Positions 45 to 51,700 of a DNA stretch of 64,000 bases are shown one piece after another (the first letter of the stretch is position 1; every line of letters begins with the position of its first letter). Both the position numbers and the translations under genes were made by a program. The DNA is from Afipia sp. P52-10 (GTDB lineage Bacteria; Pseudomonadota; Alphaproteobacteria; Rhizobiales; Xanthobacteraceae), in contig NZ_AZSJ01000003.1 of NCBI RefSeq assembly GCF_000516555.1, positions 274,460 through 338,459 of the forward strand. The letters run 5' to 3'. The notes below the pieces were generated by a model that was given only the letters and a program-made list of their open reading frames with translations, did not search any database and was not told the origin of the DNA.

Positions 45-1274
45 TTACTTGTCCGGCGATAGCGGCAGATCGATGCCACCTTTGATATGTTTGATCGGTC
101 CTGCCGCCGAAGGCATGATGTCGAAATCGAAGATTTCCGTCGGCAGCCACAGCGTCGCGCAGGCGTTCGGAATATCGACAACGCCCGAGATATGGCCTTG
201 GCACGGGGCGGTCCCCAGGATCGAGTAGGCCTGCGCGCCGGAGTAACCGAACTTCTTCAGGTACTCGATCGCGTTCAAGCAGGCCTGCCGATAGGCGATA
301 TGCACATCGAGGTAATGCTGTTTGCCAGCCTCATCGACGGAGATGCCTTCGAAAATCAGGAAGTCCTTATAGTTCGGCGTCACCGGCGACGGTTTGAAGA
401 TCGGATTCTTGATGCCGTACTTGGAAACGCCGTCCTTGATGATGTCCACCTTGATATGTAGCCAACCCGCCATTTCGATGGCGCCGCAGAAGGTGATCTC
501 GCCGTCGCCCTGGCTGAAGTGCAGGTCCCCCATGGACAGACCGCCGCCCGGTACATAAACGGGGAAGAAGATCTTCGAGCCGCGCGACAGATCCTTGATG
601 TCGCAGTTGCCGCCATGCTCGCGCGGCGGCACCGTGCGCGCCCCCTCCGCGCCGATCTTCGCCTTGGCGTCTCCGGTCGCCTTGCCCGCATGCGCGGTCG
701 CCGCAAACGGCGGATTGGCGAGCGGCGGCACGCGGGTCGGGTTGGTGGCGATGAAGCCGACCTCGCGGTCGTTCCACGTCTTCAGGAGTTTCGGATCAGG
801 CAGGCAGCCGATCAGGCCTGGATGAATCAGGCCGGCGAAGTTGACACCCGGAATATGCCGCGACGAGGTGTACAGTCCCTTGAAATCCCAGATCGACTTC
901 TGCGCCTGCGGGAAGTGATCCGTGAGGAAGCCGCCGCCGTTGTTCTTGGAGAAGAAGCCGTTGAAGCCCCACAGGCTCTCCTTCAACGGCCCGACATCGA
1001 GCAGATCGACCACCAGCAGGTCACCCGGCTCCGCACCCTTCACGCCGATGGGGCCCGACAGGAAATGCACGATCGACAGGTCGATGTCGCGCACGTCGTC
1101 CGCCGAGTCGTTGTTCTTGATGAAACCGCCGGTCCAATCATAGGTCTCGACGATGAAGTCGTCGCCGGGATTGACCCACGCCACCATCGGAATGTCGGGG
1201 TGCCAGCGGTTGTGGACCATGTCGTTCTCGTAAGCCGACTTGGTAAGGTCGACCTTGATCAGTGTGTCAGGCAT
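45..1274 (-). CDS. fmdA: Formamidase / short-chain amidase (FmdA family)
   Basis: Predicted cytoplasmic formamidase/acetamidase that hydrolyses formamide or short amides to ammonia and the acid. The 409-residue protein is of the usual family length (about 400) and is full length, with family-typical stretches such as VDLLDVGPL, CLPDP, PPREHGGNCDIKDL and GDLHFSQGDGEI. The start is taken at 1274 because AAGGGGAG lies 7 nt upstream of that ATG; an in-frame extension to 1358 has no such site and would run into the intergenic space after urtE. It is the last gene after urtABCDE on the same strand, 43 nt downstream of urtE, which suggests that the importer supplies its substrate. Family assignment is secure; the preferred amide is not visible in the sequence. 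Confidence 0.92.
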   Translation of the reverse strand: MPDTLIKVDLTKSAYENDMVHNRWHPDIPMVAWVNPGDDFIVETYDWTGGFIKNNDSADDVRDIDLSIVHFLSGPIGVKGAEPGDLLVVDLLDVGPLKESLWGFNGFFSKNNGGGFLTDHFPQAQKSIWDFKGLYTSSRHIPGVNFAGLIHPGLIGCLPDPKLLKTWNDREVGFIATNPTRVPPLANPPFAATAHAGKATGDAKAKIGAEGARTVPPREHGGNCDIKDLSRGSKIFFPVYVPGGGLSMGDLHFSQGDGEITFCGAIEMAGWLHIKVDIIKDGVSKYGIKNPIFKPSPVTPNYKDFLIFEGISVDEAGKQHYLDVHIAYRQACLNAIEYLKKFGYSGAQAYSILGTAPCQGHISGVVDIPNACATLWLPTEIFDFDIMPSAAGPIKHIKGGIDLPLSPDK

Positions 1275-1317
1275 AGCAAGCTCCCCTTGGATTACCGTTG
1301 ATTGGGTTACCGACGAT

Positions 1318-2007
1318 TCAGACTGAGAGAAATTTCGCGACCTGCTCGGCATCGACACTGGCGCGCAGCTCGTCGCGGACGATCTCGCCGTTCTCGATCA
1401 CCAGCACGCGGTCGGCGATATCGAGCGCGAAACTCAAGACCTGCTCGGAGACGACGATCGACAACCCTCGCTCGTCGCGAATGCGCTTCAGCGTGCGCGC
1501 CATCTCCTGGATAATCGACGGCTGGATGCCCTCGGTCGGCTCGTCCAGCAGCAGCACCTTCGGCTTGGTCGCCAGCGCGCGCGCGATCGCAAGCTGCTGC
1601 TGCTGGCCGCCCGAGAGATTCCCGCCGCGGCGGTTCTTCATCTCCAGCAGCACCGGAAACAATTCGTAGATGTCGTCCGGCACCTTCGATCCACCGGACG
1701 CGACGAGGCCCGTCTCGATGTTCTCCTTCACGGTCATGGTCGAGAAGATCATCCGGCCTTGCGGCACATAGGCGAGCCCTTTGGCAACCCGCTCGTAGCT
1801 CTTCAACCCGCCGACCTCGGCGCCGTTCATCCGCACCGTGCCGCTCTTGGCGGGAATGATTCCCATCAGCGCCTTCATCAGCGTGGTCTTGCCCATGCCG
1901 TTGCGCCCCATGATGGCGACGATTTCGTTCGGCGCGACGCTGACGTTCAGGCCATGCAGCACTTCGCTTTGACCGTAGGCGACATGATAATCGGTGATAT
2001 CGAGCAT
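1318..2007 (-). CDS. urtE: Urea/short-chain amide ABC transporter, ATP-binding protein UrtE
   Basis: Second ATPase of a branched-chain-amino-acid-type (LivF-like) importer, energising uptake of urea or short amides. The 229-residue protein has Walker A GRNGMGKTT near residues 34-42, the ABC signature LSGGQQQQLAIARAL, Walker B VLLLDEPTEG and a switch region in VVSEQ. In this last motif Gln occupies the usual H-loop His position, as is common in LivF/UrtE proteins. The start at 2007 gives MLDITDY, the usual UrtE N-terminus; a longer frame to 2352 would overlap urtD and reads as low-complexity shadow sequence. It is separated from urtD by a 47-bp palindromic repeat, unlike the other tightly spaced urt genes, so its expression may be partly uncoupled. 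Confidence 0.93.
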   Translation of the reverse strand: MLDITDYHVAYGQSEVLHGLNVSVAPNEIVAIMGRNGMGKTTLMKALMGIIPAKSGTVRMNGAEVGGLKSYERVAKGLAYVPQGRMIFSTMTVKENIETGLVASGGSKVPDDIYELFPVLLEMKNRRGGNLSGGQQQQLAIARALATKPKVLLLDEPTEGIQPSIIQEMARTLKRIRDERGLSIVVSEQVLSFALDIADRVLVIENGEIVRDELRASVDAEQVAKFLSV

Positions 2008-2025
2008 CACGCTTCTCTTCGCTTG

Positions 2026-2072: not shown

Positions 2073-2828
2073 TTAATGTCCGAGATAGACTTCGATGACT
2101 TTCGGGTCGGTCTTGACGTGCTCCATCGAGCCTTCCGACAGGATCTTGCCCTGATGCAGAACCGTCACCTTGTGGGCGATATCCTCGACGAACTTCATGT
2201 CGTGCTCGATGACGAGCACGGAGCGGTTCTTGATGATCCGCTGCAGCAGTTCGGCGGTCTTGACCCGCTCGCTCACGCTCATGCCTGCGACCGGCTCGTC
2301 GAGCATCAACAGCTCCGGATCCTGGATCAGCAGCATGCCGATCTCCAGCCACTGCTTTTGCCCGTGGCTCAAAAGATCAGCGCTCGTGTCGAGACGGTCC
2401 TTCAGGAAGATCATCTCGGCGACCTCCTCCACCCGCTCGCGCACCGCCGCATCGCGCTTAAACGCCAGCGCGCCGAACACCGTGCGGCCGCGCGGATAGG
2501 ATATCTCCAGATTCTCGAACACCGTCAGGTCGTCATAGATCGACGGCGTCTGGAACTTGCGCCCGACTCCCGCCTGGACGATGTCGTTCTCCTTCAACGT
2601 CGTCAGCTCCTGGCCGCGAAAGCGGATCGAGCCGGAGGTGGCTTTGGTCTTGCCGCAGATCAGATCCAGCACCGTGGTCTTGCCGGCGCCGTTCGGACCG
2701 ATGATGACGCGAATCTCGTTCTCTTCGACATAGAAGGAGAGATCGTTGACCGCCTTGAACCCATCGAATGAAACCGTAAGGCCCTCGACAGCGAGCAAAA
2801 AGTCCGGCGGCTGATATCCGATGATCAT
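2073..2828 (-). CDS. urtD: Urea/short-chain amide ABC transporter, ATP-binding protein UrtD
   Basis: First ATPase (LivG-like) of the importer. 251 residues with Walker A GPNGAGKTT near residues 43-51, a degenerate signature LLSHGQKQWLEIGM typical of UrtD, Walker B LLMLDEPVAGMS and H-loop VIEHDMKF. The GKFQTPSIYDDLTVFENLE-type stretch (here GRKFQTPSIYDDLTVFENL) is characteristic of UrtD. It starts 8 nt after the urtC stop, so it is translated as part of the same operon. Works with UrtE on the cytoplasmic face of UrtB/UrtC. Confidence 0.94.
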   Translation of the reverse strand: MIIGYQPPDFLLAVEGLTVSFDGFKAVNDLSFYVEENEIRVIIGPNGAGKTTVLDLICGKTKATSGSIRFRGQELTTLKENDIVQAGVGRKFQTPSIYDDLTVFENLEISYPRGRTVFGALAFKRDAAVRERVEEVAEMIFLKDRLDTSADLLSHGQKQWLEIGMLLIQDPELLMLDEPVAGMSVSERVKTAELLQRIIKNRSVLVIEHDMKFVEDIAHKVTVLHQGKILSEGSMEHVKTDPKVIEVYLGH

Positions 2829-2836
2829 GGCCTCTC

Positions 2837-3982
2837 CTATTCCGCAGGGGCGCCGTCGGTGACGGAGCTGTCATTCCAGCGCGCGGGCAAAGTCTTCCGC
2901 TTCTGCAGCAGGCGATCGAGATATGGCTGCGCATAATCGCGCCAGATCCCCGCGAGACCGTTCGGAAACACCAGCACCACGGCGATGAACAGCGCGCCGA
3001 GACCGAACAGCCAGAGCTGCGGGAAGGATTCCGACAGGCTGGTCTTGGCGAAATTCACCAGCAAGGCGCCGTACACCGCACCGAAGATCGATAGCCGACC
3101 GCCGACGGCGGTGTAGATCACCATCTCGATCGATGGCACGATGCCGACGAAGGACGGCGACATGAAGCCGACTTGAAGCGTGAACATCGCCCCGCCGATC
3201 GCCGCGAACACCGCCGCGAGGCAAAACACGAAGATCTTGAAGTTGGCGACGCTGTAGCCGGAGAAGCGGACACGGTCCTCCTTGTCGCGCATGGCGACGA
3301 GAATCCGGCCGAGCTTCGCATGACGGATGAACTGCGCCGCGACGATGCACCCGAACAGGCAAGCGACGCAGACGAAGTAGAGGATCAGCTTGGCGCTGTC
3401 GGTACGGATGTCCCAGCCTTTCAGCGTGCGCAAATCCGTAATGCCGTTGATACCTCCGGTGTAGCCCTGCTGGCCGACGATCAGGATTGTCAGGATTGCG
3501 GCGATCGCCTGGGTGATGATCGCGAAGTACACGCCGCCGACCCGCCGCTTGAACATTGCCGCGCCGATGACAAAGGCGAAGAACGCGGGCACCAGAACGA
3601 TGGCAAGGACCGTGAACGTCAGACTGTGGAACGGCTGCCAGAATAACGGCAGCTGGGTGAGCTGATTCCAGTCCATGAAGTCCGGGATGCCGGGCGTGGA
3701 CTGGATCTTGGTGTTCTCGATGCTAGAGGCTTCCAGCTTGAGATACATCGCCATGCAATAGCCGCCGAGGCCGAAGAACACGCCCTGCCCGAGGCTCAGA
3801 ATGCCGCCGAAGCCCCAGCACAGCACCAGCCCCATCGCCACGAAGGCGTAGGTGAGATACTTGCCGACGAGATTGAGGCGGAAGATATCGAGCGTCAGCG
3901 GCAGGATCACCACCAGCAGCAACGCGAGCACAGCGATGCCGATCCAGTCCGCGCGCTTGAGGAAGCGTGTGCTGTCCATCAT
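2837..3982 (-). CDS. urtC: Urea/short-chain amide ABC transporter, permease UrtC
   Basis: LivM-like inner-membrane permease of the importer, 381 residues, with about ten hydrophobic segments; the first is IGIAVLALLLVVILPLTLDI and the stretch GFGGILSLGQGVFFGLGGY is the conserved permease motif. An adjacent ATG at 3979 is possible; the upstream GAGGA favours 3982. It lies 10 nt after urtB and 8 nt before urtD. The polar C-terminal tail (RKTLPARWNDSS) is normal for UrtC. It forms the heterodimeric channel with UrtB. Confidence 0.93.
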   Translation of the reverse strand: MMDSTRFLKRADWIGIAVLALLLVVILPLTLDIFRLNLVGKYLTYAFVAMGLVLCWGFGGILSLGQGVFFGLGGYCMAMYLKLEASSIENTKIQSTPGIPDFMDWNQLTQLPLFWQPFHSLTFTVLAIVLVPAFFAFVIGAAMFKRRVGGVYFAIITQAIAAILTILIVGQQGYTGGINGITDLRTLKGWDIRTDSAKLILYFVCVACLFGCIVAAQFIRHAKLGRILVAMRDKEDRVRFSGYSVANFKIFVFCLAAVFAAIGGAMFTLQVGFMSPSFVGIVPSIEMVIYTAVGGRLSIFGAVYGALLVNFAKTSLSESFPQLWLFGLGALFIAVVLVFPNGLAGIWRDYAQPYLDRLLQKRKTLPARWNDSSVTDGAPAE

Positions 3983-3992
3983 GACACGATCC

Positions 3993-4919
3993 TCACTTGC
4001 GAACCTTGAGAGCGAACAGACCCTGCGGCCGCAGCATCAGAATTCCAACGATCGCCAATAGCGTCAGCACCTTGGCCATCGATCCGGACATGAAGAACTC
4101 CATGGTCGATTGCGCCTGGGAAATGGTGAAGGCAGAAGCGATGGTGCCGAGCAGGCTGGCGGCGCCGCCGAACACGACAACGAGGAAGGTATCGACGATA
4201 TAGAGTTGGCCGGAGGTCGGCCCGGTCGAGCCGATCATCGTGAAAGCGGAGCCGGCGATGCCGGCGATACCGCAGCCGAGACCGAAGGTGTAGCGATCGA
4301 CTCTCTCGGTGTTGATGCCGACGGCGCCAGCCATCACGCGATTCTGTACTACGGCGCGAACCTGCTTGCCCCAGCGCGACCAGAACAGCACGTAGGCGAC
4401 GACGAGCGTGATGACGACGGTCAGACTCATCACGAACATGCCGTTGATGGGAATCTCAACCGTGTCGGTGAGCTGCTTTGAGCCCATCATCCACTGCGGC
4501 AGCTCGACGCCGACCTCACGCGCGCCGAACACCGAACGATAGGTTTGCTGCAGGATCAAACTCAGCCCCCAAGTCGCCAGCAGCGTGTCGAGCGGCCGCT
4601 TATAGAGATGACGTATCAGCGCCCATTCCACCAACATGCCGAGCGCGCCGGCGGCGACGAAGGCGAAGGCCATCGCCACGAAGAAATAGCCGTTGAACAG
4701 GCCCGGCAAATGCTCCTGAAACAGGTTCGAGGTCAGCCAGGTCACGTAGGCGCCGAGGATCATGAACTCGCCATGCGCCATGTTGATGACGCCCATCTGG
4801 CCGAAGATGATCGCGAGCCCGAGCGCCATCAGAACGAACACCGAGAACAGGATCAGTCCGGCGAAACCTTGCATGACGAAGATTGAGGACAAATCGCCAA
4901 TCGAATAGTCGCCGAACAT
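3993..4919 (-). CDS. urtB: Urea/short-chain amide ABC transporter, permease UrtB
   Basis: LivH-like inner-membrane permease, 308 residues with the start chosen at 4919 (MFGDYSIGDL), because GGAG lies 6 nt upstream; the ORF could extend 10 residues to 4949 without a better ribosome site. Conserved LAIIFGQMGVINMAHGEF near the N-terminus marks the permease family, and RVDRYTFGLGCGIAGIAG is typical of UrtB. Some UrtB proteins carry a long N-terminal extension; this one lacks it. It follows urtA after a 115-nt gap holding repeats and an inverted repeat, a layout often seen where the binding protein is made in excess over the membrane parts. Confidence 0.92.
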   Translation of the reverse strand: MFGDYSIGDLSSIFVMQGFAGLILFSVFVLMALGLAIIFGQMGVINMAHGEFMILGAYVTWLTSNLFQEHLPGLFNGYFFVAMAFAFVAAGALGMLVEWALIRHLYKRPLDTLLATWGLSLILQQTYRSVFGAREVGVELPQWMMGSKQLTDTVEIPINGMFVMSLTVVITLVVAYVLFWSRWGKQVRAVVQNRVMAGAVGINTERVDRYTFGLGCGIAGIAGSAFTMIGSTGPTSGQLYIVDTFLVVVFGGAASLLGTIASAFTISQAQSTMEFFMSGSMAKVLTLLAIVGILMLRPQGLFALKVRK

Positions 4920-4945
4920 CGATAGCTCCGTGTGAAAGGAAGGCC

Positions 4946-5006
4946 GCATCGCGCCAACTCTTACGCGCCAGTCTGACGCGCCAAGTCTTGCGCCCCAGCG
5001 CGATGC
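4946..5006. repeat. Inverted repeat enclosing three short tandem repeats, urtA-urtB gap
   Basis: GCATCGCGC (4946-4954) and GCGCGATGC (4998-5006) are perfect 9-nt inverted arms. Between and overlapping them run three 13-14 nt direct repeats beginning GCGCCA (4951-4964, 4965-4977, 4978-4991). In the urt transcript this would form a stem-loop just downstream of the urtA stop, a place where such structures commonly protect the binding-protein part of an mRNA or attenuate read-through. The function is inferred only from position. Confidence 0.5.
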
Positions 5007-5034: not shown

Positions 5035-6312
5035 TTACTGGTAGCCTTTCGGGAACGGATCCGGCTCGACCAGTTCGGCGGTCTCGTAGATCAACTCGTA
5101 CTGCCCGTCGGCCTTGGCGCGGCCGACCCGCGTCTTCGACCAGAGATGATGGTTCTCGTGGATGCGGACGTAACCTTCCGGCGCGCCCTTGAATTCCACG
5201 CCGGGCGAAGCAGCCGCGACCTTGTCGATATCGAAGGAGCCCGCCTTCTCCACCGTCGCTTTCCACAGCCACGGGCCGAGATAGGCCGCCTGGGTGACGT
5301 CGCCGATCACCGTCTTGTCACCCCACATCTTTTTGAAGGCCGCCACGAACTCCTTGTTGTTCGGATTGTCGAGGGACTGGAAATACTTCATGCAGGCATA
5401 AGCGCCGGCGATATTCTCGCCGCCGATGCCGTCGATCTCGTCTTCGGTCACCGAGATCGTCAGCAGCGTCTGCTTGGAGAGATCGATGCCCGCGGCCTTG
5501 AGCTGCTTGTAGAAGGCGACGTTCGAACCGCCGACGATGATCGCGTAGATCACGTCCGGCTTGGTGAGCTTGATCTTGTTGATCACCGAGTTGAACTGGG
5601 TATGACCGAGCGGGAAGTATTCTTCGCCGACCACCTTGGTCTTCAGATGGTTCTCGATGTGCTTGCGGGCGATCTTATTCGACGTGCGCGGCCAGATGTA
5701 GTCGGAGCCGAGCAGATAGAAGCTCTTGGCGCCCTTCTCCTTCGTCACCCAGTCGAGCCCGGCGATGATCTGCTGCGTCGCCTCCTGGCCCGTGTAGATC
5801 ACGTTCTTCGATTGCTCGAGGCCTTCATAGAACGTCGGATAGTAGAGCATGCCGTTGTACTGTTCGAACACCGGCAGCACCGCCTTGCGCGAGGCCGAGG
5901 TCCAGCAGCCCATCACCGACGCGCACTTGTCGTTGACGAGCAGCTTCTTCGCCTTCTCGGCGAAGGTCGGCCAATCGCTGGCGCCATCCTCCTGGATGAA
6001 CTTGATCTTGCGGCCGAGCACGCCGCCTGCGGCATTGATCTGCTCGATGGCGAGTTTCTCCGCCTGCACTGAGCCGGTCTCGCTGATCGCCATGGTACCC
6101 GTGACCGAGTGCAGGATGCCGACGGTCACTTCCGTATCGGAAACCGCAAGACCCGTGGTGTTGACCACCGACGTCGCCGGCCCGGCGCCGAATGACGGCC
6201 GGCCGCCCAGCAGCGAAACCGCCGGCAGCGCTGCCATCCCCATCAAGAGCTTTCTGCGCAGCGGCGACCGCAAGCCGCTGGTAATGACCTCGTTGTTGTT
6301 CTCGTCCGACAT
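5035..6312 (-). CDS. urtA: Urea/short-chain amide ABC transporter, substrate-binding protein UrtA
   Basis: Periplasmic binding protein of the importer, 425 residues. The N-terminus has a Tat-like signal: SPLRRKLLMGMAALPAV followed by a small-residue region ending near SFGAGPA. The mature part begins with VTVGILHSVTGTMAISE, the standard peripheral binding-protein fold of the UrtA/AmiC branch. The start at 6312 (MSDENNNEV) is chosen because the upstream extension to 6417 runs into the divergent promoter region and lacks coding character. First gene of the minus-strand operon urtA-B-C-D-E-fmdA. The amidase neighbour means that amides such as formamide or acetamide are as likely as urea as ligand. 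Confidence 0.93.
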   Translation of the reverse strand: MSDENNNEVITSGLRSPLRRKLLMGMAALPAVSLLGGRPSFGAGPATSVVNTTGLAVSDTEVTVGILHSVTGTMAISETGSVQAEKLAIEQINAAGGVLGRKIKFIQEDGASDWPTFAEKAKKLLVNDKCASVMGCWTSASRKAVLPVFEQYNGMLYYPTFYEGLEQSKNVIYTGQEATQQIIAGLDWVTKEKGAKSFYLLGSDYIWPRTSNKIARKHIENHLKTKVVGEEYFPLGHTQFNSVINKIKLTKPDVIYAIIVGGSNVAFYKQLKAAGIDLSKQTLLTISVTEDEIDGIGGENIAGAYACMKYFQSLDNPNNKEFVAAFKKMWGDKTVIGDVTQAAYLGPWLWKATVEKAGSFDIDKVAAASPGVEFKGAPEGYVRIHENHHLWSKTRVGRAKADGQYELIYETAELVEPDPFPKGYQ

Positions 6313-6364
6313 GACCCACCCCTTCGTTGCGGAGGACACACTGCAATCCGAATGGGCAGACGTT

Positions 6365-6408
6365 GGCGCAATTTGTGCACTGCACAGATACGCAAGATCG
6401 CGTATACT
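6365..6408 (+). promoter_or_regulatory. Candidate promoter and 13-bp palindrome, urtA / sensor-kinase divergent region
   Basis: The 153-nt space between divergent urtA (start 6312) and the kinase (start 6466) holds several signals. GG at 6365-6366 and GC at 6377-6378 with exactly 10 nt between them match the sigma-54 GG-N10-GC skeleton (TTGGCGC...TGTGC) facing the kinase gene. TGTGCA-C-TGCACA at 6374-6386 is a perfect palindrome with one central base, a candidate activator site. TATACT at 6403-6408, with a weak CTGCAC 17 nt upstream, is an alternative sigma-70 promoter. No convincing -24/-12 pair was found facing urtA. These are motif matches only. Confidence 0.35.
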
Positions 6409-6465: not shown

Positions 6466-9400
6466 GTGACCGGGCCGCAGCGCATCGACCGCGTCAGGCG
6501 CCAGTACAACCAGTGGGTAGCCAACCAGACGCTGGAAGACTACGCTCTGCGTTTCACGGCCAAGAGCGCACGACGCTGGTCGGCCGCCCGCGTCGCCAAC
6601 ACCGCGATCGGCTCGATCTCGTTTCTGGCGCTGGAGGCGATCGGCGGCACCATCACGCTCAACTATGGCTTCACCAACGCGACGGCGGCGATCCTCGTGG
6701 TCAGCGTCATCATCTTCTGCTGCGGTCTGCCGATTGCCTATTATGCCGCCAAATGCGGCGTCGACATCGACCTGCTTACCCGCGGCGCAGGGTTCGGCTA
6801 CATCGGCTCGACCATCACCTCGCTGATCTATGCGACCTTCACCTTCATCTTCTTTGCCATCGAGGCGGTGATCCTCGCGATGGCCCTGGAGCTGTGCTTC
6901 GGCATTCCCCGGCCGATCGGCTATCTCATCAGTGCGATAGCCATCATCCCGTTGGTGACGCACGGCATCAACCGGATCAGCCGCTTCCAGCTCTGGACAC
7001 AGCCGCTCTGGATCGTCTTGCACATCCTCCCCTTCGCCGCGATCGCCTTGAACCATCGCGAGTCGTTCACCGAATGGACCCGCTTCACCGGCGAGCATGG
7101 CAATCCATCAGGAGCATTCGATATTCTGCTGTTCGGCACGGCTGCGGCTGTCGTGTTCTCGCTGGTGGCGCAAATCGGCGAACAGGTCGACTTCCTGCGC
7201 TTCCTGCCGCGTGATCGCCGGACGTCGAAGACGGCCTGGTGGCTGGCGCTGTTGAGCGCCGGTCCCGGTTGGATCGTGCTCGGTGCGCTCAAGCTGCTGG
7301 CCGGCTCTTTTCTGGCTTTCTTCGCACTGAGCCACGGCATCAGCGCCGAGCACGCGGCCGAGCCGACGGAGATGTACTACGCCGTCTTCCGTTACGTGCT
7401 GTCGCAGCCGGATCTCGCCCTGGCGCTGGCCGGGACCTTCGTGATCCTGTCGCAGCTGAAGATCAACGTCACTAACGCCTATGCCGGGTCGATCGCATGG
7501 TCGAACTTCTTCTCGCGCCTGACGCACCGGCATCCGGGCCGCGTGGTGTGGCTGGTGTTCAACGTGATCGTCGCCGTGCTGCTGATGGAGATCGGCGTCT
7601 ACAAGGCGCTCGAGCAGACGCTCGCGCTTTATTCCATCGTCGCCATCGCCTGGGTCGGTGCATTGGTTGCCGACCTGACCGTGAACAAGCCATTGGGATT
7701 GCGACCGGCGCAGATGGAGTTCAAGCGCGCGCACCTGTACGACATCAATCCGGTGGGCGTCGGCACGATGGCAGTGGCGACCGCGACTTCGGCCGCGGCT
7801 CTCTATGGCGTCTTCGGGCCGACCACCAAGGCGCTGGCGCCGTTCGTCGCATTGGGCACCGCCTTCGTCACCGCGCCGCTGATCGCGCTCGTCACCCGCG
7901 GCCGCTACTACATCGCACGCAAGCCGATGAAGAGCTGGGAGGGGCTGGAGTCGATCCAGTGCTGTATCTGCGAACACGCCTTCGAACCCGAGGACATGGC
8001 CTCGTGCCCGGCCTATTCGGGACCGATCTGCTCGCTGTGCTGTTCGCTTGACGCCCGCTGCGAAGATCTCTGCAAGCCGCATGCACGTATCTCGACGCAG
8101 CTGACCAACACGTTCGCCAAGGCGATCCCCTCACCGGTCGATGCACAGGTCGCATCGCAGCTCGTGCATTACCTGTTCGTATTCCTGATGTCCGCCGGAC
8201 TGGTGGGCCTGACTCTCGGTCTGATCTACGTGCAGGTCTCCTCGGAGCCCGGAGCAGACGGCAGCGCCACCGCCATTGCCGACGCGCTCTGGAAGGTATT
8301 CTTCGCGCTTGCGATCGTCATTGGTGTGGTGGCGTGGTTGTTCGTGCTGGCGCGGCAGAATCGAGAAGCCGCCGAATCCGAGACCCGCAGGCAGACCACG
8401 TTGCTGATGCAGGAGATCGAAGCGCACGAGCGCACCGATGCCGAGTTGCAGCGTGCCAAGGAGGTCGCCGAATCAGCCAACCTCGCCAAGAGCCGCTACG
8501 TCGTCGGACTGAGTCACGAACTGCGTTCGCCGCTCAACGCGATCTCCGGCTATGCGCAGCTGCTCGATCAGGACGACGGCTTGCAAGCGAAGCCGCGCGG
8601 CCAAATCCGCGTCATCAAGCGCAGCGCCGACCATCTGTCCGGCCTGATCGACGGCATTCTGGACATTTCCAAGATCGAAGCCGGCCGGCTCTACCTCGCC
8701 CGCGACGAAGTGCTGCTGGGCGATTTCCTGGATCAACTCGTCGGCATGTTTCGCCTGCAGGCGAACGCCAAACAGATCGACTTCATCTTCGAGCGTCCGA
8801 ACTATCTGCCGCACGCCGTTTACACCGACGAAAAGCGATTGCGGCAGGTCCTCATCAATCTCTTGTCGAACGCCATCAAGTTCACCGCCCGCGGCAGCGT
8901 GCATTTCATCGTCCGCTACCGCGACCCGGTGGTGGAGTTCGAAATTCGCGATACCGGACCCGGCATCCAGCCAGACGATATCGAGCGCATTTTCGAGCCG
9001 TTCGAGCGCGGCGCGCTCGGCACATCGCAGCCGCAGACCGGCACCGGTCTCGGCCTGACGATCAGCAAACTGCTCGCCGGCGTGATGGGTGGTGACATCA
9101 GCGTCACCAGCACCGTCGGCGCTGGCAGCACCTTCCGCCTCAAGATGCTGCTTTCGGAAGTCACGTCACCGGGCCAGATTGCACCGCCCGTCGATGCCAA
9201 AGTGTCCGGCTATCTCGGCCCACGCAAGACCATCCTGATCACCGACGACGATCCGGCGCAGCGCGATATGCTTGGCGAGGTGCTGGCGCCACTCGGCTTT
9301 ATCCTGCTGAGCGCACCCAACGGGGCGGCCTGCCTCAGCCTCGCCCAGCACTGCCAGCCGGATCTGTTCATACTCGATATCTCGATGCCGCAGATGGACG

Positions 9401-9843
9401 GATGGGCGGTGGCCGAAGCGCTGAAGACTTCCGATCATCGCAACGCCAAGGTGCTGATGCTGTCGGCAAGTGCGCTGGAGGCGCATGGCAGTTCGCTCGC
9501 GCAGCGGCTGCACGACGGCTATCTGATGAAACCGATCGACATTCCGCGGCTGCTCGGCGAGATCGGCAAGCTGCTGGCGATCGATTGGACCAATGGCGGG
9601 GACAAACAGGAAAGCGCTGAACAGCAACCGACCCACTTGGTTCATCCATCGGCGGCGCAGATCATTGAGCTCATTCGACTCGGCGAGATGGGACACATCA
9701 GGGCCATCCAGTCCCATCTCGACGCGATTGATCGCAACCAACCCGAATGCCGTGGTTTCGTCGAACAGGTCCGCGTCCTGATCGATCATTTCAATTTTCC
9801 CGAGTTCCTCGCGCGTCTGAGACTGTTGCAACACCATGAATGA
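6466..9843 (+). CDS. NCS1 permease fused to hybrid histidine kinase (transporter-sensor kinase)
   Basis: Membrane sensor kinase of 1125 residues. Residues about 1-470 are an NCS1 family (nucleobase/hydantoin-type) permease: NQTLEDYALRFT and ARRWSAARVANTAIG near the start, then about twelve membrane segments. Residues 499-536 hold nine cysteines (CCIC, C514, C522, CC at 525-526, C532, C536), a possible metal or Fe-S site. Two more membrane helices (about 565-625) and a short coiled coil lead into HisKA (GLSHELRSP, H684), HATPase (NLLSNAIKFT, DTGPGI, GTGLGL) and a REC domain (LFILDISMPQMDG, D971; KPID). An 80-residue tail follows. GTG at 6466 is chosen because GGGGGAG lies upstream; an ATG at 6352 would add 38 non-conserved-looking residues. 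It overlaps the next regulator gene by 8 nt and diverges from urtA, suggesting it senses amide, urea or a related compound by binding or transporting it. Confidence 0.9.
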   Translation: MTGPQRIDRVRRQYNQWVANQTLEDYALRFTAKSARRWSAARVANTAIGSISFLALEAIGGTITLNYGFTNATAAILVVSVIIFCCGLPIAYYAAKCGVDIDLLTRGAGFGYIGSTITSLIYATFTFIFFAIEAVILAMALELCFGIPRPIGYLISAIAIIPLVTHGINRISRFQLWTQPLWIVLHILPFAAIALNHRESFTEWTRFTGEHGNPSGAFDILLFGTAAAVVFSLVAQIGEQVDFLRFLPRDRRTSKTAWWLALLSAGPGWIVLGALKLLAGSFLAFFALSHGISAEHAAEPTEMYYAVFRYVLSQPDLALALAGTFVILSQLKINVTNAYAGSIAWSNFFSRLTHRHPGRVVWLVFNVIVAVLLMEIGVYKALEQTLALYSIVAIAWVGALVADLTVNKPLGLRPAQMEFKRAHLYDINPVGVGTMAVATATSAAALYGVFGPTTKALAPFVALGTAFVTAPLIALVTRGRYYIARKPMKSWEGLESIQCCICEHAFEPEDMASCPAYSGPICSLCCSLDARCEDLCKPHARISTQLTNTFAKAIPSPVDAQVASQLVHYLFVFLMSAGLVGLTLGLIYVQVSSEPGADGSATAIADALWKVFFALAIVIGVVAWLFVLARQNREAAESETRRQTTLLMQEIEAHERTDAELQRAKEVAESANLAKSRYVVGLSHELRSPLNAISGYAQLLDQDDGLQAKPRGQIRVIKRSADHLSGLIDGILDISKIEAGRLYLARDEVLLGDFLDQLVGMFRLQANAKQIDFIFERPNYLPHAVYTDEKRLRQVLINLLSNAIKFTARGSVHFIVRYRDPVVEFEIRDTGPGIQPDDIERIFEPFERGALGTSQPQTGTGLGLTISKLLAGVMGGDISVTSTVGAGSTFRLKMLLSEVTSPGQIAPPVDAKVSGYLGPRKTILITDDDPAQRDMLGEVLAPLGFILLSAPNGAACLSLAQHCQPDLFILDISMPQMDGWAVAEALKTSDHRNAKVLMLSASALEAHGSSLAQRLHDGYLMKPIDIPRLLGEIGKLLAIDWTNGGDKQESAEQQPTHLVHPSAAQIIELIRLGEMGHIRAIQSHLDAIDRNQPECRGFVEQVRVLIDHFNFPEFLARLRLLQHHE

Positions 9844-10951: not shown

Positions 10952-11419
10952 ATGAACTCCAATCATTCGACACTTGGCTTCGTTCTGCACGATGTCGCGC
11001 GCCTGCTCCGCCGCCGCTTCGAGCAGCATGCGCGTGGCTCAGGGCTGACCCGCTCGCAGTGGCAGGTGCTCGCATATCTCGAACGCAACGAAGGCATCCA
11101 TCAAAGCGGCTTGGCCGAGCTGCTGGAGATCGAACCGATTACACTCGGCCGCATGGTCGACAAACTTCAGGAGCTTTCTTTGGTCGAGCGGCGGCCGCAT
11201 CCGACCGACCGCCGCATCTGGCTGCTGTGGCTGACTCCGAAGGCACGCCCCAAACTGACCAAGCTCAAGGCACTGGGCGACCTCACCCGCAGCGAGGCGC
11301 TTGCCGATATCTCGGAAAAGGATCGCGAGCATCTGTTGAAGACGCTGACGACCCTGAAAGTGAATTTGACAAACGCCATTGCCTCCCAACCATCACTGAA
11401 ACGAGCGAACAATGGCTAA
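10952..11419 (+). CDS. MarR family transcriptional regulator
   Basis: Winged-helix repressor of 155 residues, normal MarR length. The sequence has the family layout: helices 1-2 (VLHDVARLLRRRFEQHA), helix-turn-helix (HQSGLAELLEIEPITLGRMV), wing (VERRPHPTDRRIWLLWLTPK) and a C-terminal dimerisation helix. The wing motif DRR is intact. The start at 10952 (MNSNHSTLG) is preferred; ORF extension to 10793 runs through the promoter and palindrome. It overlaps emrA by 8 nt, so it is the first gene of marR-emrA-emrB and probably represses the operon until a ligand or substrate binds. Confidence 0.9.
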   Translation: MNSNHSTLGFVLHDVARLLRRRFEQHARGSGLTRSQWQVLAYLERNEGIHQSGLAELLEIEPITLGRMVDKLQELSLVERRPHPTDRRIWLLWLTPKARPKLTKLKALGDLTRSEALADISEKDREHLLKTLTTLKVNLTNAIASQPSLKRANNG

Positions 11420-12668
11420 GAACGAAACCGCCAACACGGCAAAGGCGCAGGATGATGCCGAAAACGTGCATCACCTGACGCGGACGAAGGCCGAGACCGC
11501 CCGCGTCGAAACTCCTGCCGAACGCCGGCCCGCCGAACACCCCGAATCTCCCGCCAGCGAGCAGGAGAGCGCCGCCACTCTCGCTCCGGGCGATGCCCCC
11601 CCTCCGGGCGAGGGTGGCAGGCGACTCTCGACCCGCAAGGTCCTGTTCGCGCTGCTGCCGATCGCGCTCGTCGTCTTCTGCTACGTCTACATCACCGGCG
11701 GGCGAACGATGACCACCGACAATGCCTATGTGCAGGCCGACATGGTCGGCGTCGCCAACGATATTGCCGGCATTGTTAGTGAAGTCGACGTTAAGGAGAA
11801 TCAGAAGGTCGCCGTGGGCGATGTGCTGTTCAAGCTGGATGACAAGGCGTTCCGTCTCGCGCTCGATCGCGCCGACGCACAGCTCAGCATCACCCGCAAC
11901 AACCTGATCGCCTCGCAGGCGAACTACCGCAACATGCAGGCGCAGATCGAACAGGCCAAGGCCGACGTCGATTTCGCCAGCGTCACCTTCAAGCGCCAAC
12001 AGGAGCTGGCCGCCAACAACTTCACGCCACGCGCCACCTTCGATGATGCCCGCCGCAATCTTCAGGTCGCGCAGCAGAAGCTGGCCTCGCTGAATCACCA
12101 GCTCGCCGGGCTTGCTGCCAGCCTGAACAACGATCCGAATGCGGCGGTCGAAAGCTATTCACAGTATAAGGAACAACTGGCCGTGCGCGATGAAGCCGCG
12201 CGCCAGCTCAGCCATACGGTGGTTCGCGCGCCGATCGCCGGCGTCGCCACCAAGGTCGCTTCGCTGCAACCGGGACAATATCTTGCCGCCTCCACCAGCG
12301 CGTTGGCCGTGGTCGCCACCGATCACGTCTGGGTGCAAGCCAACCCGAAGGAGACCGAGCTGACCTATGTGAAGCCGGGCCAGAAGGCGACGATCGAGGT
12401 GGACACCTATCCGGGCGTCCAGTGGAATGGAACGGTCGAAAGCATCAGCCCGGCGTCGGCGTCGAGCTTCTCGCTGCTGCCGGCCGAGAACTCGAGCGGC
12501 AACTGGGTGAAGGTGGTGCAGCGCATCCCGATGCGGGTGCGGGTCGAAACGGATCCCAACAAGCCGCAACTTCGCGTCGGCATGAGCGTGGAGCTCGGCG
12601 TCGATACCGGTCACGCGCGTGGCGTGCCCGAGCCGATCGCGCGGCTGTTCAGACACGCGGGAGCTTAA
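11412..12668 (+). CDS. emrA: EmrA-type membrane fusion protein (HlyD family) of MFS efflux pump
   Basis: Periplasmic adaptor for a tripartite multidrug efflux pump, 418 residues. A long polar N-terminal cytoplasmic region (residues 1-70, rich in Ala, Glu and Pro) precedes one transmembrane helix at about 76-95. Then come the biotinyl-lipoyl half-motifs (TDNAYVQADMVGVANDIAG; VRAPIAGVATKVASLQPGQ), a coiled-coil hairpin (about 150-255) and a beta-barrel domain (VWVQANPKETELTYVKPGQ). Typical EmrA is about 390 residues; the extra is in the N-terminal tail. It overlaps marR by 8 nt and is followed 3 nt later by emrB. An outer-membrane TolC partner is not encoded here. Confidence 0.93.
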   Translation: MAKNETANTAKAQDDAENVHHLTRTKAETARVETPAERRPAEHPESPASEQESAATLAPGDAPPPGEGGRRLSTRKVLFALLPIALVVFCYVYITGGRTMTTDNAYVQADMVGVANDIAGIVSEVDVKENQKVAVGDVLFKLDDKAFRLALDRADAQLSITRNNLIASQANYRNMQAQIEQAKADVDFASVTFKRQQELAANNFTPRATFDDARRNLQVAQQKLASLNHQLAGLAASLNNDPNAAVESYSQYKEQLAVRDEAARQLSHTVVRAPIAGVATKVASLQPGQYLAASTSALAVVATDHVWVQANPKETELTYVKPGQKATIEVDTYPGVQWNGTVESISPASASSFSLLPAENSSGNWVKVVQRIPMRVRVETDPNKPQLRVGMSVELGVDTGHARGVPEPIARLFRHAGA

Positions 12669-12671
12669 ATC

Positions 12672-14222
12672 ATGGCCGGCGCCGTATATGACGAAGGCGT
12701 CGTTCCAGCCGGCATCAATCGCATCGCGATCACCGGCTGCATCATCCTGGCGGTCATCATGCAGGCGCTGGATACCACCATCGCCAACGTGGCGCTGCCG
12801 CATATGCAGGGCAGCGTCGCCGCCAGCAGCGAACAGATCAACTGGGTGCTGACCTCTTACATCGTGGCGGCAGCGATCATGACCCCGCCGTCCGGCTACC
12901 TGACCAGCCGGTTCGGCCGCAAGCGGGTGCTGCTGATCTCGGTTGCGGGCTTCATTATTACCTCGATGCTCTGCGGCGCGGCGCAAACGCTCGAGCAGAT
13001 CGTCATCTTCCGCCTGTTGCAGGGATGTTTCGGCGCGGCCTTGGTGCCAATCGCGCAAGCGGTCATGCTCGACATCTTTTCCTTGAAGGAGCGCGGCACC
13101 GCTATGGGCGTATTCGGCGTCGCGGTGATGGTCGGGCCGGTGCTTGGCCCGGTGATCGGCGGCTGGCTCACCGATCAGCTCAACTGGCGCTGGATCTTCT
13201 ACATCAACCTGCCGCTCGGCGCGCTGGCCTTCGCAGGCATCTCCTATTTCATGTATGAGACCCGCAGCAAGGCGCCGAGCAAGTTCGACTGGCTCGGCTT
13301 CGGCAGCCTCAGCGTCTTCATCGCCGCGCTGCAGGTGTTCCTCGACCGCGGCAGTCAGCTTGACTGGTTCTCCTCGCTGGAAATTATCATCGAGGCCGTG
13401 ATCGCGGTCTCGGCCCTGTACATCTTCATGGTGCATGTCTTCACGTCGAAGACGCCGTTCATCAATCCGCGGCTGTTCCTCGACCGCAATTATGCGATCG
13501 GCATCGTCTTCATTTTCATGATCGGCATCACCTATCTCGCCTCGATGGCGCTGATGACGCCTTACCTGCAGACGCTGATGGGCTATCCGATCGTCACCGC
13601 CGGTATCGTCATGGGACCGCGCGGGCTCGGCACCATGGTCTGCATGTTCGTGGTCGGCCGCATGATCAACAAGGTGGACACCCGCATCCTGCTGCTGATC
13701 GGTTTCGGCCTGACGGCATGGTCGATGTACGACATGACCGGCTGGACGCCCGATGTCTCCCAGTGGACGATCGCCTCGGTCGGCTTCATACAGGGCGCCG
13801 GCCTCGGCTTCCTGTTCGTGCCGCTGACGACGGTGACCTTCGCGACCCTGGCGCCGCAACATCGTGGCGAAGCAACCGGCATGTACAACCTGTCGCGCAA
13901 TACCGGTTCGGCGGTCGGCATTTCGATCGTCACATACCTGCTGTCGCGCAACGTGCAGGTCAATCACGCGATCCTCGGTGAGCACGTCAATCCCTACAAT
14001 CGCGCGTTCGACAATCCGACGGTACTGAACCTGATGAGCCCATGGACTGCGAGCGGACGTGCCGTGCTCGACCAGTTCGTCAACGGACAAGCGTCGATCA
14101 TCGCCTACATCAACGATTTCAAGCTGATGATGATCCTCGCCTTGGCAGCGATGCCGCTGGTCTTCCTGCTGAAGAAGGCGACGCCTTCGAACGACGCGAG
14201 CCACGCGATCGCCGCGGACTGA
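12672..14222 (+). CDS. emrB: EmrB-type MFS multidrug efflux permease (DHA2 family, 14 TM)
   Basis: Proton-driven drug exporter of the inner membrane, 516 residues with about 14 hydrophobic helices. DHA2 motif D1 is seen in LDTTIANVALPHMQGSV, motif A in YLTSRFGRKRVLL and motif C in GVAVMVGPVLGPVIGGWLTD. It works with the preceding EmrA adaptor. The pair lies in one operon with the MarR repressor; only 3 nt separate emrA and emrB. The following 73-nt gap before the convergent hydrolase gene has only a weak 5-bp GC hairpin (14229-14242). Confidence 0.94.
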   Translation: MAGAVYDEGVVPAGINRIAITGCIILAVIMQALDTTIANVALPHMQGSVAASSEQINWVLTSYIVAAAIMTPPSGYLTSRFGRKRVLLISVAGFIITSMLCGAAQTLEQIVIFRLLQGCFGAALVPIAQAVMLDIFSLKERGTAMGVFGVAVMVGPVLGPVIGGWLTDQLNWRWIFYINLPLGALAFAGISYFMYETRSKAPSKFDWLGFGSLSVFIAALQVFLDRGSQLDWFSSLEIIIEAVIAVSALYIFMVHVFTSKTPFINPRLFLDRNYAIGIVFIFMIGITYLASMALMTPYLQTLMGYPIVTAGIVMGPRGLGTMVCMFVVGRMINKVDTRILLLIGFGLTAWSMYDMTGWTPDVSQWTIASVGFIQGAGLGFLFVPLTTVTFATLAPQHRGEATGMYNLSRNTGSAVGISIVTYLLSRNVQVNHAILGEHVNPYNRAFDNPTVLNLMSPWTASGRAVLDQFVNGQASIIAYINDFKLMMILALAAMPLVFLLKKATPSNDASHAIAAD

Positions 14223-48705: not shown

Positions 48706-51700
48706 TCACCGGTGCAACCATAGCCGAAGAGCGGCGAGCAATTGCTCGGTATCCACGGGCTTGGCCAGATAGTCCGATGCGCCCGCATCAAGACACTTCT
48801 CTCGATCGCCCTTCATCGCCTTCGCAGTCAGCGCTACGATGGGCAAACGGCGGAAGGCGGAATTGCGCCTGATGGCAGCAATGGTCTCGTAACCATCCAT
48901 CTCCGGCATCATGATATCCATCAGCACGATCGCGACGTCGTCTGTCGAGCCGAGGATATCGATCGCCTCCCGGCCGGTCGTCGCCGTCAGGACATGCATG
49001 CCACGCCGCTCGAGTACGCTGCTCAACGCGAAGATGTTGCGCGCATCGTCATCGACGAGCAGCACCGTGCGCCCGACCAAATCCTCGTCGGTACCGTTCA
49101 ACCTCTCCAGCATCTGCTGCTTCTCGGCCGGCAGATCTGTCACCACGCGGTGCAGGAACAGCGAGGTCTCGTCCAGCAGACGTTCGGGCGACTCGACGCC
49201 CTTAACGACGATGCTCCGCGCCATCTTATGCAAGCTGGCGTCCTCCTGATCCGACAGTTCGCGACCGGTGAAGACCACGACCGGAATCTCCGATAGCACG
49301 GCGTCGGCCCGCATCGCCTCGAGTACGTCGAAGCCGGACATATCAGGCAGCTTGAGATCCAGCACGAGACAATCGACGGACGTTTTCCGCAGTGCCTCCA
49401 ATGCTTGCGCGCCGGTTCCGGCGGTCGCAATCTCGATGTCGTCGTGTCCCAACAAGGCCGCAATACTCATTCGTTCGGACGGGTCGTCCTCAACGACGAG
49501 AAGCCGCTTTCGCTTCTGCCCCGCGTACGATTTGATCCTGACGATCGCATTCTCCACTCCATCGCTCGTGGCCGGCTTGGTCAGGAACGCGAAGGCCCCG
49601 CGTGACAATGCGTGTTGCCTGTCTTCATCCAGCGTCACCACTTGCACAGGAATATGTCGCGTTAATGGATTCTGCTTCAGCTGACTGAGAACGGTCCAGC
49701 CGAGCATATCCGGCAGGAAGATGTCCAGCGAGATCGCGGTCGGCTGGAACTGTTTGGCCAGTTCCAGTGCATCGACGCCTCTCGCGGCGGCGAGAACCTT
49801 GAAGCCTTTCTCGTGGGCGAGATCGGCGATGATCTTCGCATAATGCAGATCGTCCTCAATGATAAGGAAAATCGAATCGCCCGCTTCGATTTCGCTCCGA
49901 TCGTCGACCAAGCGCTCGACGGGTCGATTTTGCGTTTCGCCACTCGGCTTCGTCTGCATCACGGCCGGTGGCCGCTGATCGGCCGGGTAAGATGTCGATG
50001 CTCCGGCATATCGCGTTGGGAGATAGAGCGTGAAGCAGCTTCCCCGCCCCGGCATACTGCGAAGTTGTATCTCTCCGCCCAACAACGCGGCAAGCTCGCG
50101 GCTGATTGCCAGCCCCAGTCCGGTGCCGCCATACTTGCGGCTCGTGCTCGCGTCCGCCTGCTGAAACGCCTCGAAGATGATCCTTTGCTTGTCGAGCGGG
50201 ATGCCAATGCCGGTATCCTCGACCTCGAACGCGAGCACCTCCGGAGCCTCCCCCAACACCGGATGATGCGGGCTCCATCCACCGGAAACCGGCGAGACCT
50301 TCAACCGCACACCGCCTTGCGCCGTGAACTTGCAAGCATTCGACAGCAGGTTCTTGAGAACTTGCTGCAATCGTTTGGAGTCCGTCGTGATGGTGCGAGC
50401 GAGCGCGGGGCTGAGCTCGACATCGAACGAAAGTTTGCGGCTTTCCGCCTCATGCTTGAACGGCCGCGCGATCGCATCAAGCAACGCTTTCAGGACGATT
50501 TCCTCGGCTTCGACGGTTACCGTACCGGATTCGATCTTGGACAGGTCGAGAATATCGCTGATCAAGTTCAGAAGATCCGTGCCCGCGCCATGGATCGTCC
50601 GCGCGAATTCGACCTGTCTCGGGCTCAAGTTGCCTTCCGGGTTCTCCGTCAACTGCTGCCCGAGGATCAGAATGCTGTTGAGCGGCGTCCGCAGCTCGTG
50701 CGACATGTTCGCAAGGAATTCGGATTTGTATTTCGACGTCAGCGCGAGCTCGCTCGCCTTCTCTTCAAGCGCCCGGCGCGCCTGCTCGATTTCCTGATTC
50801 TTCCGCTCCACATCGACGTTGCGCTCGGCAAGCTGCTGCGCCTTCTGTTCGAGCTGGTCGTTGGTATCCTGCAGCTCTCGTTTCTGCGATTGCAATTCAC
50901 CGGCAAGCGTCTGCGATTGCTTCAGCAGCGCCTCTGTCTGCATGGTGACTTCGATCGAGTTGAGAACGATCCCGATGCTTTCGGTAAGTTGCTCAAGGAA
51001 GGTGATCTGCGATGCGGTGAAGGCTTTGACCGATGCGAGCTCGATCACGGCTTTGACCTGATTTTCGAAAACGATCGGCAGAACCACCACGTTCTGGGGA
51101 ACGACCTTGAAGAGGGACGACCCTATCGGAACCGCATGCGCCGGCAACTGCTCGATCAAAACGCGCCGCTTCTCCAGAGCGCACTGCCCGACCAGACCTT
51201 CGCCGAGCCGGATCACATCGGGATGTCCAAAACTGCCGTCGCCTGCGTAGGAGGATAGAAGCCTGAGCGTCTGCGCGTTATCACCGGTCATCTGGTAGAT
51301 GACGCCGAGCTGCGCCTCTACCAGCTTGGTCATCTCCGACAGCAGAAGCCGTCCGACGGTAGCGAGATCGCGCTGACCCTGCAGCATGTTGGTGAAGCGC
51401 GCGAGGTTGGTCTTCAGCCAATCCTGCTCGGTGTTGCGGTCCGTCGTCAATCGGAGATTGTCGATCATCGTATTGATGTTGTCTTTGAGCTCGGCCACCT
51501 CGCCGCGCGCATTGACTTGAATCGATCGCGTGAGGTCACCCTTCGTCACGGCGGTTGCGACCTCCGCGATGGCGCGCACCTGCGTCGTCAGGTTCGCCGC
51601 AAGCAAATTGACGTTTCCGATCAGGTCTTTCCATGTGCCGGCAGCGCCAGGAACCATCGCCTGTCCGCCGAGACGGCCTTCGACGCCGACTTCGCGCGCA

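Follow-up and report, generated by a model that had tools for sequence, protein, structure and literature searches.

Architecture of the transporter-kinase protein

The analyzed stretch of Afipia sp. P52-10 (64,000 nucleotides of contig NZ_AZSJ01000003.1, positions 274,460 to 338,459; hereafter, the window) harbors a hybrid histidine kinase whose N-terminal part is a complete transporter domain, together with a response regulator gene and a divergently oriented urea importer-formamidase cluster (Table 1). The kinase is encoded in a single frame running from a GTG at 6466 to the stop at 9843. The frame is open further 5′, with an in-frame ATG at 6352. The GTG is the likely start, as it is directly preceded by GGGGGAG and a gene beginning at the ATG would enclose the predicted operator at 6389–6404. 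Hydropathy analysis predicted 12 transmembrane (TM) helices within residues 47–476 and two further ones at 571–589 and 611–629. HisKA, HATPase_c, and REC (Response_reg) were matched in Pfam with E-values of 1e-15 to 1e-27, and all the hallmarks of a hybrid kinase, i.e., the H, N, and G boxes and the REC aspartate, were found to be present. The AlphaFold model was confident, with a predicted local distance difference test (pLDDT) score of 85.6, and contained an unbroken helix (residues 598–699) from the second TM of the hairpin through the phospho-acceptor H684, which in the model would offer a direct mechanical path from the last TM to this residue. The existence of hundreds of full-length homologues argues that the open reading frame is not a chance one. 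A preliminary description of the locus had proposed a full transporter and a hybrid kinase in one frame, and the 12-TM NCS1 fold, the two additional TMs, and the HisKA, HATPase_c, and REC domains strongly support this. Of the four Pfam domains it had named, the three of the kinase portion were recovered, whereas Transp_cyt_pur (PF02133) was unmatched even at E ≤ 10.

PF02133 was also absent from 53 homologues and found nothing anywhere in the genome of this Afipia strain, and searches of NCBIfam and the PDB sequences with the transporter part gave no match. The transporter was therefore assigned through fold comparison. The structure search with the transporter model retrieved CodB as the best match (7qoa; Z 34.1, 3.4 Å, 396 residues), along with Mhp1 (Z 25.9–29.1, with 4d1a at 29.1), while the best non-NCS1 transporter scored 23.7. 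No SSF (SLC5) match was found in the Pfam scan of the window protein, and NCS1 structures far outscored those of SLC5. As it adopts the CodB/Mhp1 fold in the model and yet escapes the Pfam NCS1 profile, the domain appears to be a divergent branch of the NCS1 fold rather than a Pfam-defined member. In the alignment to classical NCS1 proteins, which is uncertain at such a distance, the TM3 motif W-x-G-x-Q is replaced by F-F-A-x-E and a stretch of TM8 reads K-I-N-V-T-N-A-Y; by the same uncertain alignment, the substrate-stacking aromatic position of TM3 (mostly Trp in NCS1) is occupied by Phe and the Gln position by Glu133. The linker between the transporter and kinase had no significant Pfam match, in a profile set not confirmed to include STAC.

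Stand-alone relatives and the cysteine module

A GTDB scan revealed 331 stretches encoding relatives. Of 398 evenly sampled Pseudomonadota genomes, 61 gave a match of some kind, and a homologue of the kinase type was present in 52. The closest relatives of the transporter domain are stand-alone permeases, which share the pocket motifs in TM3, TM6, and TM8 with the kinases. The Acinetobacter protein (43% identity) precedes ureEFG-hupE-ureDABC on Acinetobacter plasmids, and a Klebsiella pneumoniae relative annotated as "cytosine permease" (locus L185, 7956–9563) is placed directly 3′ of ureG; it belongs to the urea/amide-linked NCS1 clade and is more probably a permease for urea than for cytosine. 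Similarly, the Moraxella relative is paired with fmdA-fmdB and an Arthrobacter one with an aliphatic amidase gene, the Tsukamurella gene lies near fmdA, and a single Methylovirgula locus carries the kinase, the regulator, a stand-alone permease, fmdA, fmdB, and amiE. The relatives from Streptomyces and Arthrobacter NicSoilB11 had no urease, formamidase, or amidase neighbours. Taken by their neighbours, the stand-alone relatives point to urea and short amides as the probable substrate class. A more distant NCS1 relative (29% identity) on a Rhodococcus plasmid (L183, 7977–9404) is devoid of the cysteine module and lies beside hydantoinase/oxoprolinase genes; it hints at the ancestral substrate range.

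In the tree of transporter domains, the kinases (56/56) formed one clade with a support of 0.98, and the Methylovirgula permease was the nearest stand-alone form. It appears from this topology that the kinase fusion arose once. The two forms differ in TM1, where D56 is found in 11/11 and F57 in 10/11 stand-alone permeases, and L56 in 52/54 and E57 in 54/54 of the kinases with letters at these positions. TM1 is one of the segments involved in cation coupling in transporters of the LeuT fold. Its involvement has been described for CodB (PMC9379551). The TM1 changes suggest a possible alteration of transport in the sensor form.

The 94-residue loop following TM12 carries nine cysteines (499, 500, 502, 514, 522, 525, 526, 532, and 536). 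With an even number of TMs on either side, the N-terminus, this loop, and the kinase would lie on the same side of the membrane, and the module is hence predicted to be cytoplasmic. Across 134 homologues, of which 59 came from a diverse subset, eight of the nine cysteines are strictly conserved (134/134), in the pattern C-x2-C-x11-C-x7-C-x2-C-C-x5-C-x3-C. A search of the 398 genomes with the module gave matches at E < 1e-10 solely within these kinases, a cut-off below which the shorter stand-alone tails would score, and wide occurrence of the module was thus ruled out at this threshold. The same module forms the C-terminal end of the closest stand-alone transporters of the clade, with four cysteines in Acinetobacter, Klebsiella, and Moraxella and eight in Methylovirgula; the motif has been lost (no cysteine) in Arthrobacter and Tsukamurella. 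As stand-alone permeases end in it, the module is unlikely to have originated as a kinase linker and is best regarded as the tail in which the transporters of this clade end, brought along into the fusion. The nine-cysteine segment of the preliminary description is thus conserved except for Cys500, which varies, while its portrayal as a linker arising between transporter and kinase gave way to that of a permease tail.

The eight candidate metal ligands correspond in number to those of a zinc cross-brace (RING/FYVE/ZZ-like), and such folds were also the top matches of the module in the fold search, although weak (Z ≤ 3.3, model pLDDT 73.5). The module is probably metal-binding, with zinc and Fe-S both as candidates. 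Gating by redox or metal state, as suggested in the preliminary description, is at present speculative. The two CxxC pairs of the four-cysteine forms suggest a grouping into one site of C499, C502, C522, and C525 and another of C514, C526, C532, and C536.

Gene neighbourhood and a predicted operator

The regulator gene starts at 9836, so that its first 8 bp lie within the kinase gene, and urtABCDE-fmdA is oriented divergently; the overlap and the divergent arrangement had been described earlier. An FmdB-like zinc-ribbon gene follows fmdA just beyond the window edge. Neighbours were surveyed by tblastn over 53 loci with a reach of about 10 kb. Urt, ure, fmdA, or amiE genes were found in 51/53 loci, the remaining two being contigs under 6 kb, so that all the informative loci (51/51) have a urea/amide gene nearby. 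The urea/amide link proposed in the preliminary description, to which unrelated neighbours in most genomes would have been contrary, is thereby strongly supported. The commonest layout is a divergent urtABCDE-fmdAB (31 loci, 13 of these with amiE); another has a Urt system of a second type, sometimes together with urease. Urease genes directly adjoin the kinase in L151, L154, L156, L158, L159, and L163–L166, the subunits having been verified by NCBIfam for L154 and L151. Sinorhizobium meliloti pSymB carries the kinase, the regulator, and urtABCDE. Among plasmids, 530 PLSDB records showed a match, of which 342 were from Klebsiella. In one example (L180, 12001–15381; IncFIB/IncFII, conjugative), the kinase is divergent from formamidase-urtEDCBA. 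The Klebsiella plasmid kinase is mostly annotated as "ATP-binding protein" and sometimes as ArcB.

When the regions between urtA and the kinase gene were compared across 34 diverse loci, a shared inverted repeat emerged, TACGYM-N4-KRCGTA. With ≤1 mismatch, it was present in 30/34 regions, against 0.09 expected from shuffles, and spacers other than 4 were seen in 0–2 of the 34 loci. Since the pattern had been read from these regions themselves, further loci were then tested. At loci where urtA and the kinase are kilobases apart, the site was found upstream of urtA (L142, L145, L152, L156, L165, and S. meliloti L179); a role as a mere marker of the kinase gene was accordingly rejected, as the site goes with urtA. 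Two overlapping sites lie between the kinase and the stand-alone permease of Acinetobacter baumannii (L192), one lies upstream of amiE in Methylovirgula (L190), and one between the kinase and urtA in the Klebsiella plasmid L180. The permease loci devoid of a kinase had no such site, save one match distant from the permease in L185. In the window, 6389–6404 is the sole site at ≤1 mismatch, and no other sequence in the 5.09 Mb genome of the strain fits the relaxed pattern TACGYMN4BRCGTA without a mismatch. The 1-mismatch sites in this genome were fewer than those of a reversed-pattern control, and hence no regulon beyond the locus is claimed. The repeat appears to be a newly found conserved operator, predicted to be bound by the partner regulator.

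Table 1. Features of the transporter-kinase locus, numbered from the first nucleotide of the window.
Feature	Position	Strand	Basis
Hybrid histidine kinase with N-terminal NCS1-fold transporter domain, 1125 amino acids	6466..9843	+	Open reading frame, Pfam, AlphaFold model, homologues
NCS1-fold transporter domain, residues about 12–480, 12 predicted TM	6499..7905	+	AlphaFold model vs CodB/Mhp1; hydropathy
Cysteine module, residues 499–536, predicted cytoplasmic	7960..8073	+	Homologue alignment, hydropathy
Two-TM hairpin, residues 571–629	8176..8352	+	AlphaFold model, hydropathy
HisKA dimerisation/phosphoacceptor domain, SHELR with H684	8488..8685	+	Pfam, sequence
HATPase_c domain with N and G boxes	8824..9150	+	Pfam, sequence
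C-terminal receiver (REC) domain	9232..9558	+	Pfam, sequence
Predicted operator TACGCAAGATCGCGTA, consensus TACGYM-N4-KRCGTA	6389..6404	.	Motif search across loci, window, own genome
Partner response regulator, REC + LuxR-type helix-turn-helix, 303 amino acids	9836..10747	+	Pfam
urtA, urea ATP-binding cassette (ABC) transporter binding protein, predicted target, divergent	5035..6312	-	NCBIfam
urtB	3993..4949	-	NCBIfam
urtC	2837..3982	-	NCBIfam
urtD	2073..2828	-	NCBIfam
urtE, start inferred from homologues, frame open to 2352	1318..2010	-	Aligns to matching gene of homologous loci
fmdA, formamidase	45..1358	-	Pfam, NCBIfam

A different signalling layout was observed in L161, L162, and the partial L122, where a shorter kinase (about 894 amino acids) without the C-terminal REC is followed by a protein of 416–422 amino acids, shown in L161 to consist of REC plus HATPase_c; fmdA is about 5 kb away and the TACG operator is absent in these loci. 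Two labels call for care: L065 is titled Frankia yet matches Bradyrhizobium-type loci, so the label looks wrong, and the A. baumannii "plasmid" of L181/L192, at 3.97 Mb, looks like a chromosome. Elsewhere in the window, an EmrA/EmrB-like efflux pair lies 3′ of the response regulator (11412–14222, + strand) with no sign of belonging to the system, and a frame of 1905 amino acids (48706–54423, - strand) contains a histidine-kinase region with a match near 49666–50799.

Proposed signalling and comparison with known systems

It is likely that the kinase and its regulator constitute a urea/short-amide "transceptor" two-component system that activates urt, fmd, and ure genes. A single fusion would have joined an NCS1-fold permease of the urea/short-amide clade, with its own cysteine tail, to a two-TM hybrid kinase. 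When urea or a short amide such as formamide or acetamide binds in the pocket of the transporter, its conformation would change. This change would be relayed through the cytoplasmic cysteine module (probably holding two metal ions) and the TM hairpin, the second helix of which is continuous with the HisKA helix, and would set autophosphorylation at H684. The phosphate would pass to the LuxR-type regulator, which would bind the operator in the divergent promoter region and activate urtABCDE-fmdAB, while at other loci the targets could be urease, aliphatic amidase, or stand-alone permease genes; the internal REC would modulate signalling. Several points weigh against this proposal. From the neighbouring genes, urea cannot be told apart from formamide or acetamide as the signal, and loci with FmdA/AmiE could fit an amide, and not urea, as the signal. 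With Phe at the position aligned to the TM3 Trp, substrate recognition would probably differ from that of CodB/Mhp1. Binding of the regulator to the site is assumed, and no operator was detected at ≤1 mismatch in the urease-linked loci L151, L154, L159, L163, and L166, nor in L161/L162.

The domain might still transport urea or an amide, the kinase reading the turnover of the transport cycle and not mere occupancy, as discussed for CbrA. The complete 12-TM domain and the retained pocket motifs would agree with this, as would histidine transport by the SLC5 domain of CbrA (PMC7096432, PMC7918813). However, none of the kinases agrees with any of the 11 stand-alone relatives in TM1, a segment involved in cation coupling in this fold (D56 is replaced by L in nearly every kinase and F57 by E in every one), and most loci already possess a dedicated importer, which makes flux sensing unlikely. 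A further reading, of rather low probability, is that a single fusion turned the permease into a dedicated receptor, with the cation coupling of TM1 lost or altered, the pocket kept, and the cysteine tail turned into an obligatory two-metal signal gate into the kinase, the response possibly being metal- or thiol-dependent.

Alternatively, the domain could have no ligand of its own and instead sense through contact how active UrtABCDE or a stand-alone permease is. Contact co-sensing has precedents in DctA-DcuS and LysP-CadC. The importer often co-occurs with the kinase, and A. baumannii and Methylovirgula pair the kinase with a stand-alone permease; nevertheless, the importers differ in type between loci, some being ABC and some NCS1, with none within reach at the urease-only loci, while the sensor pocket is conserved, and such co-sensing is considered improbable. 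That the cysteine module is the primary metal or redox sensor and the transporter domain its anchor, tying nitrogen-source uptake to metal or thiol status, is suggested by the eight cysteines invariant in every kinase and variable in the stand-alone permeases, but is very improbable, as the module was inherited from the permease clade, the neighbours are nitrogen-compound and not metal/redox genes, the pocket is conserved, and a structural zinc explains the invariance equally well.

On the transceptor reading, the kinase is a candidate for the sensing of urea and short amides. The system would then be likely to regulate urea/formamide uptake in rhizobia, and to do so on Klebsiella plasmids, which number in the hundreds. 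The "UTS" cluster of K. pneumoniae CG307 comprises UrtABC/AmiF, a urea-transport cluster discussed for urinary fitness (PMC13060141); a term search of that article found no mention of a histidine kinase, sensor, or two-component system. Its likeness to the Klebsiella plasmid locus, where the kinase is divergent from urtA, is one of description. Another study draws a hybrid histidine kinase and a LuxR regulator beside urtABCDE, the kinase being unnamed and no transporter domain named (PMC13296017). No description of an NCS1-kinase fusion was found in open-access full text, a search that mostly leaves out the subscription literature, and a transporter-fused kinase with an NCS1 domain is provisionally regarded as new.

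Among NCS1 proteins, the window domain is similar to CodB, Mhp1, PucI, and MetT in its fold and 12 TMs but differs in lying outside Transp_cyt_pur, in the apparent change of the TM3 Trp/Gln to Phe/Glu, and in carrying the cysteine module and the kinase. The metformin transporter MetT demonstrates that NCS1 members can take small non-cyclic nitrogen compounds (PMC13390362). The stand-alone "allantoin/cytosine permease" genes of Acinetobacter, Klebsiella, Moraxella, and Methylovirgula are closer, with the same pocket motifs and a C-terminal cysteine tail; they differ in the absence of the kinase, in D/F instead of L/E in TM1, and in having 0 to 8 cysteines. With these extant permeases as controls and the predicted operator as a readout, the change from transporter to receptor is directly testable.

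Transporter-fused kinases have been described mainly for SLC5 (CbrA, CrbS), to which the window system adds a second transporter family. It is similar to the SLC5/STAC kinases (CbrA, CrbS/MxtR, RpuS, PrlS) in that a complete LeuT-fold transporter and a (hybrid) histidine kinase form one protein, which works with a cognate regulator of LuxR type, as in CrbR and PrlR, and structural work on CbrA has framed the transceptor idea for SLC5 (PMC13022988). In contrast to these kinases, which are tied to histidine, acetate, and pyruvate, it has an NCS1-type transporter, a cysteine module and two-TM hairpin with no STAC or PAS seen, and an association with urea/amide genes. The nearest worked-out parallel is CrbS/CrbR, a transporter-fused hybrid kinase with a LuxR-type regulator, in which CrbR activates through an imperfect inverted repeat of 17 bp (PMC5715377); the 16-bp repeat of the window system closely resembles it.

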